DNA of 64,000 bases from Acidobacteriota bacterium (GTDB lineage Bacteria > Acidobacteriota > UBA6911 > JACQSX01). The stretch lies in the NCBI GenBank assembly GCA_016211105.1, contig JACQSX010000010.1:276913-340912 (forward strand). Direction: 5' to 3'. The translations under genes were made by a program, and so were the position numbers. The first letter of the stretch is position 1; each line of letters opens with the position of its first letter. Below are positions 35,360 to 57,396 of the stretch, in pieces. The notes under the pieces were generated by a model. It searched no databases. It saw only the letters and a program-made list of their open reading frames with translations, and was not told where the DNA came from.

Positions 35360-38300
35360 CTACTGGCGTACTCCCATGGCCTGATGCATCCCCATCCGGC
35401 CGGCAAACTTCATGGTCCTTTCTACGACAATGGGTTGATCGGAAGTGACCCGTGTGCTTACTGAGGTAGGCTCATCGATCGCTGTATTGACATAAATGGC
35501 CAGCCGCTGCTTGGCCGGCAAGGTGTAGGTGCGAACAATATTCTGGCCATTTTGTTTTAAGAAACGGGCAGTAAGATTGGCCGTTTGGCTTCCTGGATTG
35601 CTGACAATCACCCACGTTTCATAGCCAAAGGCAGTAAATCCCTCCGCCAGGTTCCACACATAGGCGGTGGTAGGAGAACCGATGGAATCGCCTACGTCGG
35701 CGCCTGAAAACATCAGGCGCTCCGCCACGACGGGAGTGTTAGAAAGCACTTCCAGGGAGAAACGCTGACCGACACCAACGTCGCTGGCTGCGTTAATAGT
35801 GCGCCTGCGCTCTGCCGCCAGGGTGTAGCTCTTAGCGATGACCGTTCCGTTTTCCAGCAGGTAGTTAACCGTCACGTTGGCAATGGCGTTTGCTGGGTTG
35901 AACAGCTCCAGCAGCGTTGTGGCGACAAAGGGCGAAGTTAAGTCTGATATATCGCCTTCTGCAAAGTACCAGGTTAGGCTTGGCGACACAGCGCCAATCC
36001 CGGCCGCTCCACCTGCGCGATTGTTGATATAAAGCGCACGCTCTGCCGCAATCGCGACCGTCGCCTGCAAACGGACGGAAACGCGCGTGCCTTGCACAAC
36101 CCCGTGCACGGGGATGGTAAATCGGCTGTTGGGGCCCACCGAGTAGGTTTGAGTTAACGGATTTTGATTTTCAAAAAAGAAGGTTGCAGTGACGGCGGCG
36201 GTAGACGAACTGGAAGGGTTTACGATCAAGATGAAGTCTTCGTCCCCTGCAAGAGAACGATTGGCGGGAAAAAACCAGCTTTGGGCGGTTGATGTCACGC
36301 CAATGCTGTCGTGCCCACCTCTGCTGCTGTTGAAGTACATCGCTCTTTCCACCAGGATCGGAAGAGTCGCGTCCACGCGTGTACTGACACTAAAAGTGCC
36401 AGGCACCTCGCGGTGAATTGGTACGGTCGTGCGTGTCAGCGCCGGGACCACTTCGCTGTAAGTTTGGGTCGTACCGTCTTGTTTAAAAAATGTCAACGTA
36501 ACTGTAACCGGTGCATTATTGGGATTGTGAACCAACGCGTAAGCTTCGAACCCTACCGTGCTCCCTTCGGCTAGCAACCAGGACTTACTGATTTCGGGAA
36601 CCGTATTATTCACTCCGAAAGAGCCGGTTGCTGTTCCGCCTGTGCCTCGCACTCGAAACGTATACATTCCGTCGTTGGCGACAGCACCGGAGGAATCAAA
36701 TCCGTTCCAGCCGACTATAGTCGTTCCCGCGTTCATACTGGAGGCAATCATGGGAGTGGCGACCACGGCGCCGTTTCTGTCGAGAATCTCGATTGTTATG
36801 GTGTCGGGAGCAGAAAGCGTAAATTGAATTGCCAGTAGGTCATTGATGTTGTCGCTATTGGGCGAGATGACAAAAGGGGAGGCGCTGACTCCAGAGAGAG
36901 TGGGGGTTCCCAAGGCAGTGCTGACGGCGCCTCGTCCCGTGGTGGCTGCAGGGAAGTAAGACGTCCAAGTAGTTCGTATGTTATCGATCTTGGCCAGATC
37001 TGCTGAAGGCGCTGTGGCGCCCGCGCCGATCAGCAGGATGAACGCTTGGTTCCAGACCGTCGTGGAGTTGACCGTGGAAAAACCGCTGCTGGGCGAGCGC
37101 GAACCTTCACAGGTAATTACATTACTCAGCGTGACATTTTTTCTCAAGCCGGATGCTGTTACTCCTAGCTGCGGAGAACTGCTCCTGGTCTTGGTTGTGC
37201 CGGTGGGACCGTCGATGAAGAAAAAAGGGGAGACTTCAGCGGCGGATCGCAGGCCCATGATGTACTGGTCCAAGGCGCTAAACCTGGTGGTAGCTTCGAT
37301 CGTGGTAAATGTACCGTTTCCGTTGTCCCGCCATTTGTTTCCTTCCATGTCGGAAGCGTCACTGTCGTGGAAAAAGCTCCAGTGGGCGAGATCCCTTCCC
37401 AAGAGGAGATCGCTGCAAACGCCCCCGTTGTCAAAATTGACAAAGGCCAACCACTGATGTCCGGACTCCTGGCCCATGATACTCAGAGTGCTGTCGGTTC
37501 CGAGGAAAACAGCGGCTGGATCTGCCGGATACCGCGAAAGCCTGTTCATGTTCAGAAAGCTCTGGAGCTTTCCGGCGCTGCCGAAGAAGGAGGAGCCATT
37601 AAAAAGAGGCAGGCCGATTCCAGATGTTGTCTGGCGGGTTGTCAACTCAAACGCGAATGCATCGCCCATCGCGTGCGTGAAGTTTGCAAACATCACAATC
37701 TGATCGAATCGATCGGGGTGGATGCCGTACAATTTCCGAGCGACAGCGTTGATGTGAACCAGAGGACTTGTGCTGCTTCCGAAAACCTGCGCCAGCGGCT
37801 CAAAATTGGGAAATGTGGAGATGGACGACGCCGGGCCCAGGCTGAAGTCAACGGTAGTGACTTGGAATTCATTCCGGCCGCCTGGGGAAATCCCTGTCAG
37901 GTAGCCGCCTGCCGGCGTAGTGGGCACGCTCGAGTAACTCATCTGAATGGCCCCCGTGCTGAACAGAACAACCTGAAAGGTCGCCGTAGTGGTTGTGCCA
38001 AACAGGGGCACGCTGTTCCAGGTAACGATCAGGCGGTCTGACAGGGAGTTGGCAAAGACTCCCCCTCCAGCGCTTGGATCCCAGTCTTGCCATAAGGGAG
38101 CAATTCTGGGGAGCTGGCTTGCGATCCGGTCCAAGATCGTGGAGACGTCAGTTCCCAGCGAAGCGGGGCTGCCGCCTGAATTGAAGTGGCTCAACGCAGA
38201 CGAACCGCCAAAGGTGACGTGTCCATTGGCGTTGACAAACACGCTTGTGCGATTCACGCCGAAGAAAGGAAAAGTAAAGTTCAGAGCCTGCAACGAGGAG

Positions 38301-38857
38301 TTGTCATCTGCCAGGTTGAGGTCCGTACCAGTGCGACTGTCGAAACTCAACGCCCCTACGCCGGTTGTATAGCCACCGCCGCTTTTGGGGGTGAACGTAA
38401 CCGTCCTGTTATTCAGGTCAAAGAGCTCTCCAGGCTGGAGAATCGTCGCGTCCGATTCAATGACGGTAACGTTTCCGACCACCGAGTCCGCAGCCAACGA
38501 AAGCAAGGCAGATCGGCCGAAGATCAACACGAGGGCTGCCAGAAGAGGGAAAGTCCGAGCAGCGGCCGTTAAAACCTGCGAAAAAATTCGGCGCCGCGGG
38601 GGTAAGAACCTGTTAAAAAATTCCGAGCCGCGCGCGTAAGCAAGCGGACTCCCGTCGGAGAATCCGCTCCCTGACAGTCGCAGCTCTGCTATTCGATTTC
38701 CGCCTGCCGCATTCTGTCCGCTCCCTAACGGTCGCGGCTCGGATATTTTCGCACCTTGTAAGGGCTCCTCCCAAAAATGGCAAGAGAATAGGCTGAGAGT
38801 TGCAGGATGAAGTCGGTAATGCAACACGTAGCCTGACGAGTTGTTTTTCGCCTTCAT
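35360..38857 (-). CDS. Giant secreted protein: nidogen-like region, metalloprotease-like region, FlgD-like Ig domain, four C-terminal WxLAEGxT repeats
   Basis: Signal-like LLAALVLIFGRSALLSLAADS; FTFPFFGVNRTSVFVNANGHVTFGG; ISPNSDNINDLLAIQFTLSAPDTITIEILDRNG; ends GMHQAMGVRQ. N-terminus uncertain because of an embedded repeat. Confidence 0.75.
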   Translation of the reverse strand: MKAKNNSSGYVLHYRLHPATLSLFSCHFWEEPLQGAKISEPRPLGSGQNAAGGNRIAELRLSGSGFSDGSPLAYARGSEFFNRFLPPRRRIFSQVLTAAARTFPLLAALVLIFGRSALLSLAADSVVGNVTVIESDATILQPGELFDLNNRTVTFTPKSGGGYTTGVGALSFDSRTGTDLNLADDNSSLQALNFTFPFFGVNRTSVFVNANGHVTFGGSSALSHFNSGGSPASLGTDVSTILDRIASQLPRIAPLWQDWDPSAGGGVFANSLSDRLIVTWNSVPLFGTTTTATFQVVLFSTGAIQMSYSSVPTTPAGGYLTGISPGGRNEFQVTTVDFSLGPASSISTFPNFEPLAQVFGSSTSPLVHINAVARKLYGIHPDRFDQIVMFANFTHAMGDAFAFELTTRQTTSGIGLPLFNGSSFFGSAGKLQSFLNMNRLSRYPADPAAVFLGTDSTLSIMGQESGHQWLAFVNFDNGGVCSDLLLGRDLAHWSFFHDSDASDMEGNKWRDNGNGTFTTIEATTRFSALDQYIMGLRSAAEVSPFFFIDGPTGTTKTRSSSPQLGVTASGLRKNVTLSNVITCEGSRSPSSGFSTVNSTTVWNQAFILLIGAGATAPSADLAKIDNIRTTWTSYFPAATTGRGAVSTALGTPTLSGVSASPFVISPNSDNINDLLAIQFTLSAPDTITIEILDRNGAVVATPMIASSMNAGTTIVGWNGFDSSGAVANDGMYTFRVRGTGGTATGSFGVNNTVPEISKSWLLAEGSTVGFEAYALVHNPNNAPVTVTLTFFKQDGTTQTYSEVVPALTRTTVPIHREVPGTFSVSTRVDATLPILVERAMYFNSSRGGHDSIGVTSTAQSWFFPANRSLAGDEDFILIVNPSSSSTAAVTATFFFENQNPLTQTYSVGPNSRFTIPVHGVVQGTRVSVRLQATVAIAAERALYINNRAGGAAGIGAVSPSLTWYFAEGDISDLTSPFVATTLLELFNPANAIANVTVNYLLENGTVIAKSYTLAAERRRTINAASDVGVGQRFSLEVLSNTPVVAERLMFSGADVGDSIGSPTTAYVWNLAEGFTAFGYETWVIVSNPGSQTANLTARFLKQNGQNIVRTYTLPAKQRLAIYVNTAIDEPTSVSTRVTSDQPIVVERTMKFAGRMGMHQAMGVRQ
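38586..38743. repeat. Palindromic repeat cluster, family TCCGAGCCGCGCGCGTAAGCAAGCGGAC
   Basis: 28-nt left arm 38622..38649 with imperfect inverted right arm 38716..38743 (GTCCGCTCCCTAACGGTCGCGGCTCGGA), a second right arm at 38663..38686 and a partial left arm near 38586. Same family at 43749..43844. Confidence 0.82.
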
Positions 38858-38922
38858 ACTTCTAAACTGCAGCCTTATCTGTTCACCTTTGCGTCGAATT
38901 TTGAAAAATCCGGACCCGGAAA

Positions 38923-40023
38923 TCAGCGAGGCCCGCCTGGCAAAGGGAGCTCCCACACGCCCTGCTGTGTCCACAGTTGCAGCGCCCGTGAAGCTTCATC
39001 CACGGTCAACTGCAGAATCGCTGTATTGTCGGGGAGTGTCGCTTCAACCGGGAGCCGTTCGCCGGAATCCGAGATGGCATAAAGGCGGTTCTTCACCAGA
39101 TGGGAGTGGATCGGCTCTGCGAATATCGCATAGAGCTGACCCGGATCGTCCGGGTTGAAAGCGAGGCGTGGCACGTAGGTCGCTTGCCACGCAGCCAGCG
39201 GGATATCTTCGCCAAATTGCCGCCAGCTCGCGCCTCCATCCGTGGTTCGATAGATTCCGTGGCGCTCATGCGCAACATAAGCTACATCGGGATTACCCGG
39301 ATGAACGATCAGGCTGCGAAACTCTTCAGGTCTTCCTCCAGCCCTCGCTTCTGGGAGGCCGTTGCTTGCACTGGACCAGGTTTGTCCTTCATCGGAGCTT
39401 CTGAATATTCCGTGGCGCGCCGTGGCCACATAAAGAATGCCCGGCGCGGTTTCAGCTACGGCTACTGCCAGAGGGATATAAGGCTCGGCCACCGGGCTGG
39501 ACACCGGGTTCCAAAGCTTCCCTCCGTTTCGGGTTTGCCACAGGCCGTCGCGCCGGCCCGCGAAAACTACATTCGGATCGATGGGATTCACTGCTAGGCC
39601 GAAGACCTCGTCATTGGCGCCCTCAATGGGCGACTGGGCCCAGGATTGGCCGCCATCGTCGCTGGCAAAAAGCCCTTCCGCCGTGGTCTCATAGACTCGC
39701 ATCGAGCCAGCATTGGCGGGCACAACAGCATGGACCCGCGATCCAGGCACTCTCTGGTCGAAAACCGCAAGTCGAGCTTTGCCTGGGAGCGTCGATTTCG
39801 CCTCTTGCGTTCCGGCGAGCGCAAACGGAGCAAGGAAGAGGCCCATTGCAAGGATTAGTGCACTGTAACAACTCGAATAGTACCGGCGGACGCCGTAGAG
39901 GCGCCCCACCGTGGCGCCTCCATAGGAAAACATGGCGCCAGTCCTGGTGTGGCAGTACACTAGGAAACTCACCAAGAGAGCGTAATTCCATGCCGCTTTG
40001 TCGGCAGTCATCATCGATGCCAT
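38923..40023 (-). CDS. Secreted BNR/Ycf48-like beta-propeller protein
   Basis: Repeated sialidase/VPS10-type motifs: LFASDDGGQSWAQSP, LWQTRNGGKLWNPVS, IFRSSDEGQTWSSAS, IYRTTDGGASWRQFG. N-terminus uncertain. Confidence 0.8.
   Translation of the reverse strand: MASMMTADKAAWNYALLVSFLVYCHTRTGAMFSYGGATVGRLYGVRRYYSSCYSALILAMGLFLAPFALAGTQEAKSTLPGKARLAVFDQRVPGSRVHAVVPANAGSMRVYETTAEGLFASDDGGQSWAQSPIEGANDEVFGLAVNPIDPNVVFAGRRDGLWQTRNGGKLWNPVSSPVAEPYIPLAVAVAETAPGILYVATARHGIFRSSDEGQTWSSASNGLPEARAGGRPEEFRSLIVHPGNPDVAYVAHERHGIYRTTDGGASWRQFGEDIPLAAWQATYVPRLAFNPDDPGQLYAIFAEPIHSHLVKNRLYAISDSGERLPVEATLPDNTAILQLTVDEASRALQLWTQQGVWELPLPGGPR
39895..39924. repeat. Variant of the GTAGAG..hairpin repeat near the 5' end of the BNR gene
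   Basis: GTAGAGGCGCCCCACCGTGGCGCCTCCATA; arms GAGGCGCC/GGCGCCTC. Confidence 0.6.
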
Positions 40024-40122
40024 TTACAGAAGGAAAGACACTTCCCTATTTTTACCCCTATGTGGGGACAGTTCATGGTACAGCGGGTTGGAGGCGAGCA
40101 CAACGGCGCGGAGTCGGATGAT

Positions 40123-43100
40123 CTACTGTCTAACCCCCATCGATTGGTGCATCCCTAGCCGATTGGCGAACTTCATGGTGCGCTCGACCACGACGGGCTG
40201 ATCCGAGGTTACTTGTGTGCTGACGGAAGTCGCTTCGTCGATGCTGGTGTTGACGTAAATGGTCAGGCGCTGTTTAGGCGGCAAGACGTAGTTTCTAATA
40301 ATGTTTTGACCGCTTTGCTTCAGGAAGCGAGCCGTGATATTGGCAGTCTGGTTGCCGGGGTTGCCGACGATCACCCAGGTCTCGTAACCAAAAGCCGTGA
40401 AACCCTCCGCCAGGTTCCAGATAGTCGCCGTGGTTGGAGATCCGACTGAGTCGCCCACATCGGTCCCTGAAAACATCAAGCGTTCCGCTACGATCGGATT
40501 GTTGGAAAGCACTTCCATGGAGAACCTCCGGCCAGTACCGATCTGACTGGAAACGTCCAGCGTCAGCCGCCGCTGGGCGGGTACGTTGTAGGCTCTTGGA
40601 AGGACCGTACCGTTTTCGAGCATAAAATTGACCGTGACGGTTGCGGGAACATTTCCCGGATTGAACATTTCCAAGAAGGTAGCCACCGGGATGCTGGTAG
40701 GGGAGGTCAAGGTAGAGGTGTCTCCCTCGGCGAAATACCAGGAGAGGCTCGGGGAGGCTGCACCGATCCCGGATGCTCCACCGCTCCGGTTTTGCGTATA
40801 GAAAGCCCGTTCCGCAGCAATGGGCAGGGTCGACTGCAATTGCACGGAAACTCGAAGATTGGGACTTATTACACCGTGGACCGGTATCGTATACCGGCTG
40901 TTGGCGCCCACGGGATAGGTCTGAATCAGCGGCGGTTGATTGTCAAAGATGAACGTGGCCGTGACGATAGTCGCCGACGTGGCGGAAGGGTTGACAATCA
41001 AAATAAAATCTTCATCACCGCTGAAAGTGCGATTTCCAGCAAAGTACCAATTTTTGCTGGTAGAGGTGACGCCAATCGTGTCATGCGCGCCCTTTCCTCC
41101 ATTAAAATACATGGCTCGTTCCACAATGATGGGAAGATCGGCGTCCACTCGGCTGCTGACACTAAAGGTGTTGGGAACATTGGCAGGATCGTGTATCGCA
41201 ACGGTATCCCGGGTACGGGCGGTAATCGACTTGCTGAGAGTCTTCGTAGTGCCGTCTTGCTTGAAAAATGTAACGTTTGCCGTGATGGGCAGGTCGTTCG
41301 GGTTTTGGATCAAAACATAGGCGTCAAAACCGACGGTACTTCCTTCTGCCAGAAACCAGGAGTTATTCACTTCGGGGACGGTATTGTTCAACCCGAAAGT
41401 GCGCTGTACCGGGGCTGCGCTATCACCCCGGACTAGAAATGTGTACGTGCCATCGTTGGCAATTAACCCGGCTGAAGTGATCCCGTTCCAAGTGACATCA
41501 AAAGTTCCCGCTCCCAGGTTGGCGCCGTCAAGGGGTGTGGCCACCAGATTGCCGGTCCGATCCAGGACGTCAACGGTGATGCGGTCAGGTGAGGAGAGGA
41601 TGAACTGAACTGTGACGATGTCTGTAATGCCGTCACCGTTGGGTGAAAAGATAAATGGTGAAACGCTGGCAGCCGTGATCAGTGGACTCCCGCCGGTAGT
41701 AGGATCACTGGTCGAACCAGTCCCGCCGTTGTTGCGGTGGAAGCGAGGCCAAGGGGCGACATTCGGAGAAATACCGGTGGGACCAAGATCGGACGAACTG
41801 CCTACGCTGCCGGTCTCACGATAGATTTTCACACCGCCTGCGTCCGGGAGACCTGTAAAATTCTTATGACCGTTTCCAATCAATAAATCAATCAAACCAT
41901 CTCCGTCTATATCTGCGAGGGTGGGAGAACTCCAGGTAAACATCGGCTGTCCCGGAAATTCCGGCGAGGAAGTATCAATGGGATAGCCGGGCTTCTTGGC
42001 GCCCGTCAGAGCATCAAAAGCCGTAACGGCGCCAGCGCCTCCGACCACTACCGCGAAACCACTGCCGTCGATGTTGCCTATTGCCGGGGAGCTGAAAAAT
42101 GCGTAACTGGCAGCATCGGAAGGGGAAGCCGCGGGGGTATTTTTCCACCGAATGGTTCCGTTGGAATTGATGCAGTACAGGTACCCGCTCTGGTCCCCGA
42201 CAAAGGTTTCCAGCTTACCGTCTCCATCCACGTCTGCTAAAGCCGGAGATGCAAAAACGCGATTATCTGTCGACAGCACGCTGTCGGAGAGACTCACTGG
42301 CCAGCCGCTGACATTGATACCGCTTATCTCGTAGGCGTTGAGATACTCACCGGGATATCGAGTCTCCGGCGCAGAGGCGCCATAGTAGAGCCCAGTGCCG
42401 ATGACAATCTCCGACTGTCCATCCCCGTCGATGTCGCCAATCGCCGGAGACGATTGGAATATTTGATCAATGTATTGGGGCCAGCCCGAAAGTTGTTCCC
42501 CATTGTAGCGAAAGACACGCAGGACCCCGCCCCGCGGTACGGTGGAGTCCCCACCGATCACAATTTCCAGCTTGCCATCTCGGTTGAGGTCGGCCACTGC
42601 CGGCGAAGACCAGACGGTGTCTCCATTGTTAAAAGGCCAGCCAGGAAAGACGGCGCCTGTCTCAGCGCTCCAGACGTAGATCAGATGCGAAAAGGCCCCG
42701 ACGATTACCTCAAAGAGCCCGTTGCCATCCATATCGGCGACAGCCGGAGAGCTAAAGACTCCATAATTCCCGTCGCCGATCGAAACGCCGGTAAATTGCG
42801 GCCAGCCCGGAAGAGGGATTCCCTGGGAGTCGAAGGCATAGACGAATCCGTCTCCGGAGCCAACGAAAATTTCCAACTTGCCATCGTTGTTGATGTCCAC
42901 TAATGCAGGAGTCGAGTTCACTACATCGTTTTGTCCCGCACGAAGGACCCCACCCTGGGAGGCAGCGGTGGTCTGATTGAGTAAGGTCTTGGGGAAGCCG
43001 GGAAGCTCCGTGCCATCCGGACGCCAAGCGTGCAGCTTTCCATTGGTGTCTCCTACTACCGTGATCATCGGCGTTCCCGACCCAGCTAGCCTGCCGCCGG

Positions 43101-43341
43101 CCACGCCGGGATGCTGCACCCAAACCCCCGCATCAAATCTGATGGAAGAAGTAACAGAGGCGTAGCTATCAAATAAAGAGATCAGCGGAACGAGTACAAC
43201 AAATGCCCGTACGGCTCTCGAGCACCGATTGTAACCGCGGTTTTCATCCAACCATCTGTTGGAAACACGCTTTGTGAGGCGGAGGATCACGCGCGGGAAA
43301 ATACCATGTACAAAAACTGCGGAAAAAACAGATAGCTTCAA
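40123..43341 (-). CDS. Giant secreted FG-GAP/VCBS-repeat protein with FlgD-like Ig domain and C-terminal WxLAEGxT repeats
   Basis: FG-GAP repeats (SSPAVADMDGNGLFEVIVGAFS, ASPALADVDGDGKLETFVGDQSG); FSPNGDGITDIVTVQF; C-terminus homologous to 35360..38857, ending GMHQSMGVRQ. Confidence 0.88.
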   Translation of the reverse strand: MKLSVFSAVFVHGIFPRVILRLTKRVSNRWLDENRGYNRCSRAVRAFVVLVPLISLFDSYASVTSSIRFDAGVWVQHPGVAGGRLAGSGTPMITVVGDTNGKLHAWRPDGTELPGFPKTLLNQTTAASQGGVLRAGQNDVVNSTPALVDINNDGKLEIFVGSGDGFVYAFDSQGIPLPGWPQFTGVSIGDGNYGVFSSPAVADMDGNGLFEVIVGAFSHLIYVWSAETGAVFPGWPFNNGDTVWSSPAVADLNRDGKLEIVIGGDSTVPRGGVLRVFRYNGEQLSGWPQYIDQIFQSSPAIGDIDGDGQSEIVIGTGLYYGASAPETRYPGEYLNAYEISGINVSGWPVSLSDSVLSTDNRVFASPALADVDGDGKLETFVGDQSGYLYCINSNGTIRWKNTPAASPSDAASYAFFSSPAIGNIDGSGFAVVVGGAGAVTAFDALTGAKKPGYPIDTSSPEFPGQPMFTWSSPTLADIDGDGLIDLLIGNGHKNFTGLPDAGGVKIYRETGSVGSSSDLGPTGISPNVAPWPRFHRNNGGTGSTSDPTTGGSPLITAASVSPFIFSPNGDGITDIVTVQFILSSPDRITVDVLDRTGNLVATPLDGANLGAGTFDVTWNGITSAGLIANDGTYTFLVRGDSAAPVQRTFGLNNTVPEVNNSWFLAEGSTVGFDAYVLIQNPNDLPITANVTFFKQDGTTKTLSKSITARTRDTVAIHDPANVPNTFSVSSRVDADLPIIVERAMYFNGGKGAHDTIGVTSTSKNWYFAGNRTFSGDEDFILIVNPSATSATIVTATFIFDNQPPLIQTYPVGANSRYTIPVHGVISPNLRVSVQLQSTLPIAAERAFYTQNRSGGASGIGAASPSLSWYFAEGDTSTLTSPTSIPVATFLEMFNPGNVPATVTVNFMLENGTVLPRAYNVPAQRRLTLDVSSQIGTGRRFSMEVLSNNPIVAERLMFSGTDVGDSVGSPTTATIWNLAEGFTAFGYETWVIVGNPGNQTANITARFLKQSGQNIIRNYVLPPKQRLTIYVNTSIDEATSVSTQVTSDQPVVVERTMKFANRLGMHQSMGVRQ

Positions 43342-54671: not shown

Positions 54672-55865
54672 ATGAAACTCGTCAAAGGGATCGTTTTTGT
54701 CATATGGAGCGGAATGCCTCTCATGGCCTTCCCTCAATATCTAGCGCTTTTCACAGAGGACGTGATGAGTTCTCCACAATTTAAGAATCGTTGCGCCACT
54801 TGCCACATCAATCCTGCTGGTGGTGGCCCGCGCAACGATTTCGGCCAAGCTTTCGCGGCAAACAACTTTTCGATTACTCCGGAGTTGCGCGCGCGTTTTC
54901 CCGAACGCTTCCAATACCCAAGGCAGGTGATTGATGAGCACATCGAGATTGATTACGCGGATCCTTCCAACAAGAAGGTGGTGCTGAAAAAAGATGGCGT
55001 GGTCCGGCTGATTGACCCGTCCCATCCGCCTGGATCTGGCGCGGCTGCAAATGTGGTTGGAGAAGCAATATCCGTCACAGCGGGCGGTGGAGTATCGGAA
55101 TGGGACCGTCCTCTGCAAGTTTCCAGTCGCTGGATCAATTTACCCCAGCCGGTCGCGGTACATCGTAACGACGTAAGCTTCGTAGTGCAGCATCGGTTCA
55201 GCGCGCCACTGTTTGTGGGCTCAGCGCCACAGCTCTTCGGCCTGGACAGCACGGCGAACATTTCCTTGGGGTTCAATTTCTGGATCTGGGAGCATGTGAT
55301 GGCGTCTATTTATCGAGCGCGCTTTGACCGCGTCGTGGAAATCGGTGTCGCCGGAGATCTGTGGCAGCAGCAACGCGGCAACCCGGTTTCGCTGGCGGCC
55401 CAAATCGGGGTGGATGGCCGAGACAACTTTGGAGATTTCTATTCCCCTCATCTACAGGTGACGGTAGCGCGGCAATTTGGCAGGCGCGTCGGCGTGCTGC
55501 TTGCGCCGGCAGTGATTTTTAACAGCCAGAGCAGCACGTTGTCCTTTCTGCGCGATTTCGCGACAAAACCCGACAAAGATTACACGGTTAATCTGGGCGC
55601 CGGACTCTCGGCTAAAGTCACGCCTTCGGTCTCGATTGTGGGAGAGTATATCCCTCGAGTGGCGGGTTTTCGAGGTTACTTTACCGACCGGCCGGCTCTT
55701 TCTGTTGCGCTGCAGAAGCAAACGTTTCGCCATGTGTTCAGTGTGGTGATGTCGACTTCGAGGGAAGTGAGCATTGCCGGGTATGGTCCCAATATTGGAA
55801 CGGATGCAAGTGATACCGCCAATCGCCTGAAGATTGGATTTAATATCTTTAGAAAACTGAGGTAA
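54672..55865 (+). CDS. Monoheme cytochrome-like N-terminus fused to a predicted outer-membrane beta-barrel (DUF5777-like)
   Basis: Signal peptide; [21 protein letters not shown] heme motif; C-terminal amphipathic strands ([21 protein letters not shown].., [11 protein letters not shown]). ATG 54672 with ggagg RBS. Confidence 0.72.
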
Positions 55866-55872
55866 ACAACGA

Positions 55873-57396
55873 GTGAAACTTTCAAGAGTATTGGGCGCTT
55901 TGTTGGCTTCCACGTTTCTGGTCGTTTGCTTTCTGCTGGCCGAGAGCGGCGGGGCCCCCGCGCAGGCCATAGGAAATCCCAACATGTGTGTGCAGAGCGG
56001 ATGTCACGAAAGCTTCCGGTTGAATCAAAATGCGAATCTACTGACTGTGACCGGATTTCCTGCAACGTACAATCCGGGCACAACCTATGACGTCACCGTC
56101 AGCGTCGGGAATAATCCTACCGTCAGCCCCTCGAGAGCGCTGGCAGGATTTGCGGCCTTTGTGAACAAAGATGGGACGCCTTTTACCGCATCGGTGGGCA
56201 CGTTGACCGCCGCGGATCCAGGTACACGCTTAGCGCCTTATACGGATGGCCGCGTTCAAATTACTTATGTCACGCACAACGCGCCTCGGCCCGGTTCTCC
56301 AGCCGCCAACTTTACCTTTCGTTGGACGGCGCCCTTGACCGACAGCGGGAGTGTGGTACTGGTAGTAGGTTCAAATTCAGCCAATGGAGACGGAACGCAT
56401 ACCGGGGATTTCATCAGTAAGCAGACATTCACGGCACAGGCAGGAGCAGCGTCTTGTACGTTTGCGATCAACCCTGCAAGCCAATCTTTTGCCGCCAGCG
56501 GCGGCACAGGCGACATCAACGTTGCGGCAAATGCCGACTGCAGTTGGACGGCGACCAGCAACTCTGGTTTTATTGACATCACCAACGGCGCCAGCGGCAC
56601 GGGCAACGGCGCGGTGCGGTACTCGGTAGCCGCCAACACCAGTCTGGATAGCCGTACCGGGATACTGACCGTCGCTGGTCAGACGTTTACCGTAACACAG
56701 GCGGGCGCGCAGCCTGAAAATGAGAAGCTCTTCTTTGCCCAGTTTGGAGACGGTCAACTTCAAAGCGGCCAGAAATTCGCCTCGATCCTGATTGCAATGA
56801 ATGGCTCGACTTCGCAGACGGCTTCCGGAACGGTCAAGCTGTTTGATCCCGACGGAGACCCACTTTCATTGTCCATTAACGGCACGCAAGTCAATGGCAG
56901 TTTTCGTTTCGATATTCCACCTCAGGGAATACGTTTCTTTGCCAGTGACGCCGCGGGACCGCTGGTGACGGGATCAGTCCAGGTTACCTCCACCATTCCC
57001 ATTGTCGGCACGATTCTATTTGCCAGCGGCATAGGCACTACCGGTGTGGCCGGCACCCAGCCCCTGGCCAGGTTCATGGTTCCCATCGAATCCGATGGCG
57101 CGGCGGGGGTAGATATAGGCGTAGCGGCCTCCAATCCTACATCCTCGCTGGTGGACGTGATGCTGATTTTGCGCGACAGCGATGGCAAACCCGTTGCCAA
57201 TGGAAATGCGGTTGTGTTGCTTGCCCCGAACGGCCAATTGGCTCAATTCGCGAGGGAAATCTTCAAAGATCGGGGAATTGACTTCTCGCGCTTCAGAGGA
57301 AGCCTGGAAGTGAATTCACCCGTGCCGATTAACGGCATGGCAATCCGCGTCAGTCCTGGGCAGTTCACCACGCTTCCCGTGGCGGCGATTAATTAA
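55873..57396 (+). CDS. Secreted reeler-like (choice-of-anchor-V-type) plus BACON domain protein
   Basis: Signal peptide; [74 protein letters not shown]. Confidence 0.75.

Follow-up and report, generated by a model that had tools for sequence, protein, structure and literature searches.

Two large proteins of an Acidobacteriota bacterium share a tail of four predicted ASRAH beta-sandwich domains

The two array genes

The window, a stretch of 64,000 nucleotides from an Acidobacteriota bacterium, contains two large genes whose products, here protein 1 and protein 2, end in arrays of similar units. The reading frame of protein 1 (35360..38974, minus strand) encodes a nidogen-containing N-terminal domain with a degenerate HExxH motif, a FlgD-type Ig domain and four units that we assign to the ASRAH superfamily, while that of protein 2 (40123..43341, minus strand) encodes an FG-GAP propeller, a FlgD-type Ig domain and again four such units. 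A gene for a BNR/Sortilin-type propeller protein (38923..40023) lies between them on the same strand. Pfam recognizes NIDO, FlgD_ig and DUF5719 in protein 1 and FG-GAP, FlgD_ig and DUF5719 in protein 2, and both proteins exceed the curated cut-off for DUF5719. This architecture confirms the original prediction, in which two frames with unrelated N-termini, separated by a BNR propeller gene, shared a FlgD-like Ig domain and then four repeats. The proteins appear to be secreted or surface-exposed, with extracellular domains, and glycosyltransferases, a sugar transferase and a sulfatase are encoded in their neighbourhood within the window.

The N-terminal domain of protein 1 (36905..38527, minus strand; 541 aa) comprises NIDO and a QESGH region and is a module present in many Acidobacteriota. 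QESGH stands where distant relatives carry HExxH, and the domain is possibly zincin-like, with the first zinc ligand lost in the clade; its structural model (pLDDT 78.9) found no fold match in the PDB. An in-frame ATG is present at 38857, but where protein 1 really starts is doubtful because the 5' part of the frame crosses a repeat that occurs 30 more times in the genome. This repeat is a REP-like element (38600-38760 of the window, minus strand), the in-frame reading of which is ...RLSGSGFSDGSPLAYARGS....

The shared part of protein 1 consists of the FlgD-type Ig domain (36638..36835, E = 1.9e-10) and units 1 to 4 (36278..36580, 35972..36277, 35657..35971 and 35363..35656, respectively), and that of protein 2 of the Ig domain at 41422..41619 (E = 1.5e-8) and units at 41050..41358, 40741..41049, 40420..40740 and 40126..40419, all on the minus strand. 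Protein 1 ends with GMHQAMGVRQ (35363..35392) and protein 2 with GMHQSMGVRQ. When cut at their WxxAEG-type starts, both arrays yield exactly four units of 98-107 aa. Homology between the two proteins starts at the FlgD-like domain, and each unit of protein 1 pairs with the unit in the same position of protein 2, with 66% identity overall (67, 68, 64 and 84% for units 1-4, and 49% for the FlgD domain), unit 4 being significantly better conserved than the other three (Fisher p = 6e-4). The tails had been described as closely related to the last residue, and the four pairwise-matching units and the common GMHQ[AS]MGVRQ end bear this out. Synonymous sites are saturated (pS 0.69-0.81) while non-synonymous change is low (pN 0.10-0.30), suggesting that the duplication of the tail is old and that purifying selection has acted on it. 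From these comparisons, the tetrad was evidently duplicated jointly with the FlgD-type Ig domain and is maintained by purifying selection.

The match between the two copies within the genome (E = 1.5e-196) is far above chance, and this close form of the array is found in the genome only in the two window genes and in a decayed remnant of a third such array on contig C22. The remnant (L038 6157-6264; contig C22:90159-90257 of assembly G000) is reduced to the last 34 codons, which one stop interrupts. A pattern scan of the contigs, the result of which depends on short peptide patterns, gave only three distant loci. A second, more divergent array type with the same period is present in this genome on about ten further proteins, one of which, a BACON-domain protein in the same window, ends in a dyad (56764..57330 within frame 55861..57393, plus strand). 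With a tuned profile, complete proteins of the divergent type have four or two units, and a single protein (L036) gives three gappy hits. One divergent four-unit array lies in the N-terminal half of a 1031-aa protein (L030 4934-8026, plus strand), the exception in this genome to C-terminal placement. In five relatives of the N-terminal domain of protein 1, a divergent four-unit array comes after that domain and replaces the ASRAH-like tetrad. Thus, the C-terminal tetrad behaves like an interchangeable part.

Assignment of the units to the ASRAH superfamily

The ASRAH domain was named by De Souza, Iyer and Aravind in 2009, with a tryptophan in the first strand and an asparagine in strand 2 as its signatures (PMC2739507). 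A PDB search with a profile built from the eight window units matched TM1070 (1nc7, E = 7e-4), and one with a profile of 16 fourth units matched both TM1070 (E = 6.6e-7) and ASRT (2ii7, E = 4.4e-4). For the array of protein 1, AlphaFold gave a model (pLDDT 89.8, pTM 0.90) with one strand pattern repeated four times. In Foldseek, a single unit aligned with 1nc7_B (probability 1.00, TMt 0.80, rmsd 2.0) and with 2ii8_F (probability 1.00, TMt 0.79, rmsd 1.5); the remaining top matches are bead-on-string alignments with about 17-42 A rmsd. AlphaFold and Foldseek together indicate the eight-stranded beta-sandwich fold of the ASRAH superfamily. Both signature residues are invariant across the eight window units, and over a larger collection of 504 units the strand-2 asparagine is conserved in 483 and the tryptophan in the first position in 417. 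Based on sequence profiles and predicted structure, we conclude that the units are members of the ASRAH superfamily (Anabaena sensory rhodopsin transducer, ASRT/TM1070; Pfam DUF5719 and ASRT).

Matches to the ASRT family model, PF07100, in array proteins of two sets (3/39 and 3/33) agree with this assignment. The histidine and cysteine that line the TM1070 pocket are kept only in the ASRT-like family (PMC2739507). In the 504 units, the SHExxCxxN ligand residues are not retained, with mostly D/E/Q and L in their place, which puts the units outside the ASRT-like subfamily. The repeat had been expected to resemble DUF5719, and it does, since both proteins match this family. The Pfam DUF5719 model (PF18986), which is without assigned function, has 319 positions and covers roughly three units; a literature search found no paper with DUF5719 as its subject.

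Number, order and placement of the units

The surveyed genomes were chosen by their array or unit matches, so that the counts describe units per protein and not the frequency of the module. Of the 123 full-length array proteins, which come from Acidobacteriota, Chloroflexota and bacterium RI_26, 120 contain exactly four units (39/39 in Chloroflexota, 74/77 in the Vicinamibacteria-type set, 3/3 in RI_26, plus single loci). A strong four-unit match was obtained in 7 of 396 Acidobacteriota genomes, among them Luteitalea sp. TBR-22, with 6 to 142 detected units each, the genome of the window excepted; three genomes of the Vicinamibacteria set have more than 100 detected units each. Matches were also obtained in 31 of 151 genomes of Chloroflexota, to which the Chloroheliaceae locus belongs, and most of these genomes have exactly four hits. 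The array had no match in a plasmid collection and no significant match in PHROGs.

TM1070 is tetrameric, with a pocket formed in part by the dimer interface (PMC2739507). ASRT and TM1070 bring four domains together as tetramers of single-domain chains; here four are joined within one chain, most likely as one compact pseudo-tetramer. We consider it probable that the four units close in this way because their number is fixed, the single-domain relatives are tetrameric and the divergent type has two units or four. The alternative that the array is a structural stalk, in which stacked Ig-like domains keep the N-terminal domain off the surface, draws on the frequent use of tandem beta-sandwich repeats as spacers. 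The pTM of 0.90 points to a fixed arrangement of the units in the model and is compatible with a closed ring or, equally, with a rigid rod. However, spacer repeats vary in number, whereas four is nearly constant here, position-specific sequence identity is kept within a lineage, and the single-domain relatives are tetramers (PMC2739507), all of which makes a stalk rather unlikely.

The identity of unit positions is kept in 77/77 arrays of the Vicinamibacteria set at every position and in 35-37 of 42 in Chloroflexota. One ancestral tetrad of fixed order across phyla is unsupported, since the order is not shared between Vicinamibacteria and Chloroflexota, nor with the window. In a tree of 84 units the deep forks are unresolved, and window units 1 and 4 join Chloroflexota units with modest support. 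Either the number four was reached more than once or the units were homogenised, and the tree does not decide between the two. Returning to the pseudo-tetramer, we tentatively suggest a scenario in which ring closure fixes a single-chain tetramer at four, separate amplifications occur in different lineages, the closed module plugs in at either end of a protein, dozens of times per genome, and dyads pair into the same ring.

Four-unit arrays are C-terminal in 101 of 120 cases. At least 16 of the 19 others begin within about 135 residues of the N-terminus, many of them directly after the signal peptide. Clusters of adjacent genes in Vicinamibacteria (L067, L109 and L110, in genomes G151 and G326) encode proteins in which an N-terminal tetrad precedes a further 200-360 residues or so, and some of these proteins have GDSL-lipase-like ends. 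Carriers of the arrays include Amidase_2, subtilases, kumamolisin-type prodomains, GH18, GH5 and GDSL lipases, as well as TIG, BACON, DUF11 and several propellers; among 33 Chloroflexota carriers, seven have Amidase_2, six are subtilases, two GH18 and one GH5. The modularity that had been proposed for the repeat is therefore well founded, given the many unrelated partner domains and the prevalence of C-terminal arrays, and its occurrence is far from restricted to the two window proteins, with other placements in the minority among relatives. Tetrads on Chloroflexi amidases were already known; the number four in nearly all array proteins and the placement at both C- and N-termini are new here.

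The most specific part of the original prediction, that GMHQ[AS]MGVRQ is a recognition signal, did not hold. The decapeptide aligns with the inter-unit joints (GGHDSIGVTS, GAHDTIGVTS and equivalents), and in the AlphaFold model it forms a strand (residues 408-412) with counterparts at 98-103, 200-205 and 305-310 in the earlier units. A simple form of the motif ends units 1-4 in 85, 107, 74 and 90 of 126 arrays, compared with 17-30 in shuffles, and it is kept in 21/21 arrays that are followed by another domain. Since it closes all four units and persists in the domain-followed arrays, the motif is the last strand of the fold, and a role of the terminal decapeptide as a sorting signal is rejected. 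Similar ends in Chloroflexota (GGTNSMGIPR, GAHNTIGIRQE) are explained by chains stopping just past the last strand.

A broader version of this idea, in which the array, or its GMHQxMGVRQ-like strand, is the target of a machine for export or attachment in the manner of type IX C-terminal domains, seems to us slightly less likely still than the stalk. The predominance of C-terminal arrays, with only 1-17 residues beyond the last unit in Chloroflexota, and the very large numbers of units in the three Vicinamibacteria-set genomes are what it would lead one to expect, and CHU_C matches the FlgD-like Ig domains of the window proteins about at its cut-off (27.0 and 28.1 against 27). Nevertheless, this match overlaps the better FlgD_ig match, the motif recurs at every unit end and before following domains, and the 19 arrays away from the C-terminus, many right behind a signal peptide, speak against such a machine. 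A search of this genome for SprA gave no match, with the control likewise silent. Overall, a general secretion signal is disfavoured.

A putative glycan-binding module and its known relatives

Building on the homology, the fold, the number four, the modularity and the nature of the terminal motif as a last strand, our preferred explanation is that the shared tail is an ASRAH beta-sandwich tetrad, probably a single-chain pseudo-tetramer, that serves as a portable glycan-binding module holding secreted proteins. Under this explanation, the tetrad would hold propellers, proteases, amidases and glycosidases on a cell-surface or environmental polysaccharide. Sugar binding was predicted for ASRAH (PMC2739507), and our literature search found no later test of this ligand prediction. 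The amidase and glycosidase carriers and the glycosyltransferase-rich surroundings of the two genes in the window are the grounds on which we predict glycan binding here. By contrast, the histidine and cysteine of the TM1070 pocket are not retained in the units, nothing in many of the carriers (propellers, TIG, DUF11) points to glycans, and sugar binding is unproven even for ASRT, which has been studied as a DNA-bending protein (PMC8660804). On balance, by analogy with the relatives, a glycan ligand and an anchoring role of the predicted module seem somewhat favoured. Of the display, anchoring or secretion tail first envisaged, anchoring by glycan binding is thus the best version, and secretion is weakened by the non-C-terminal arrays. 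Direct binding of protein or nucleic acid, as proposed for ASRT with rhodopsin or DNA and in line with the DNA-bending studies (PMC8660804), is very improbable for array proteins that appear to be secreted or surface-exposed and have extracellular domains.

With this assignment, DUF5719, an unnamed Pfam family on large surface proteins, becomes a module that can be tested and whose relatives have solved structures, and the rule of exactly four or two units predicts quaternary structure. A search for the ASRAH ligand could profitably start from the arrays that free-living bacteria carry on their amidases, chitinases and proteases. Moreover, the terminal motif calls for caution, as conserved C-terminal residues are not necessarily sorting signals when the same residues end every domain.

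Secreted ASRAH versions have been described as dyads or tetrads, the latter on Chloroflexi amidases (PMC2739507). Those tetrads belong to the same superfamily as the window arrays and are likewise secreted with four tandem domains, and Amidase_2 carriers were recovered in our survey. They differ in that the window carriers, from an acidobacterium, are an FG-GAP propeller protein and a nidogen-type protein with a FlgD_ig spacer; an amidase domain is found by Pfam in neither of them, compared with 7 of 33 Chloroflexota relatives, and the order of the window units does not clearly correspond to that in the Chloroflexota set taken together. ASRT and TM1070 (PF07100, DUF1362; 2ii7 and 1nc7) share with the window units the fold (TMt about 0.8, rmsd 1.5-2.0), the first-strand tryptophan and the strand-2 asparagine. 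They are single-domain, intracellular and carry SHExxCxxN, whereas the window proteins have four domains in one secreted chain, lacking the histidine and cysteine. The type IX C-terminal domains (CHU_C, TIGR04131 and TIGR04183) resemble the array as beta-rich C-terminal modules on many secreted proteins per genome. However, TIGR04131 and TIGR04183 score far below their cut-offs on the window proteins, and type IX domains are strictly C-terminal, whereas ASRAH arrays can also be N-terminal.
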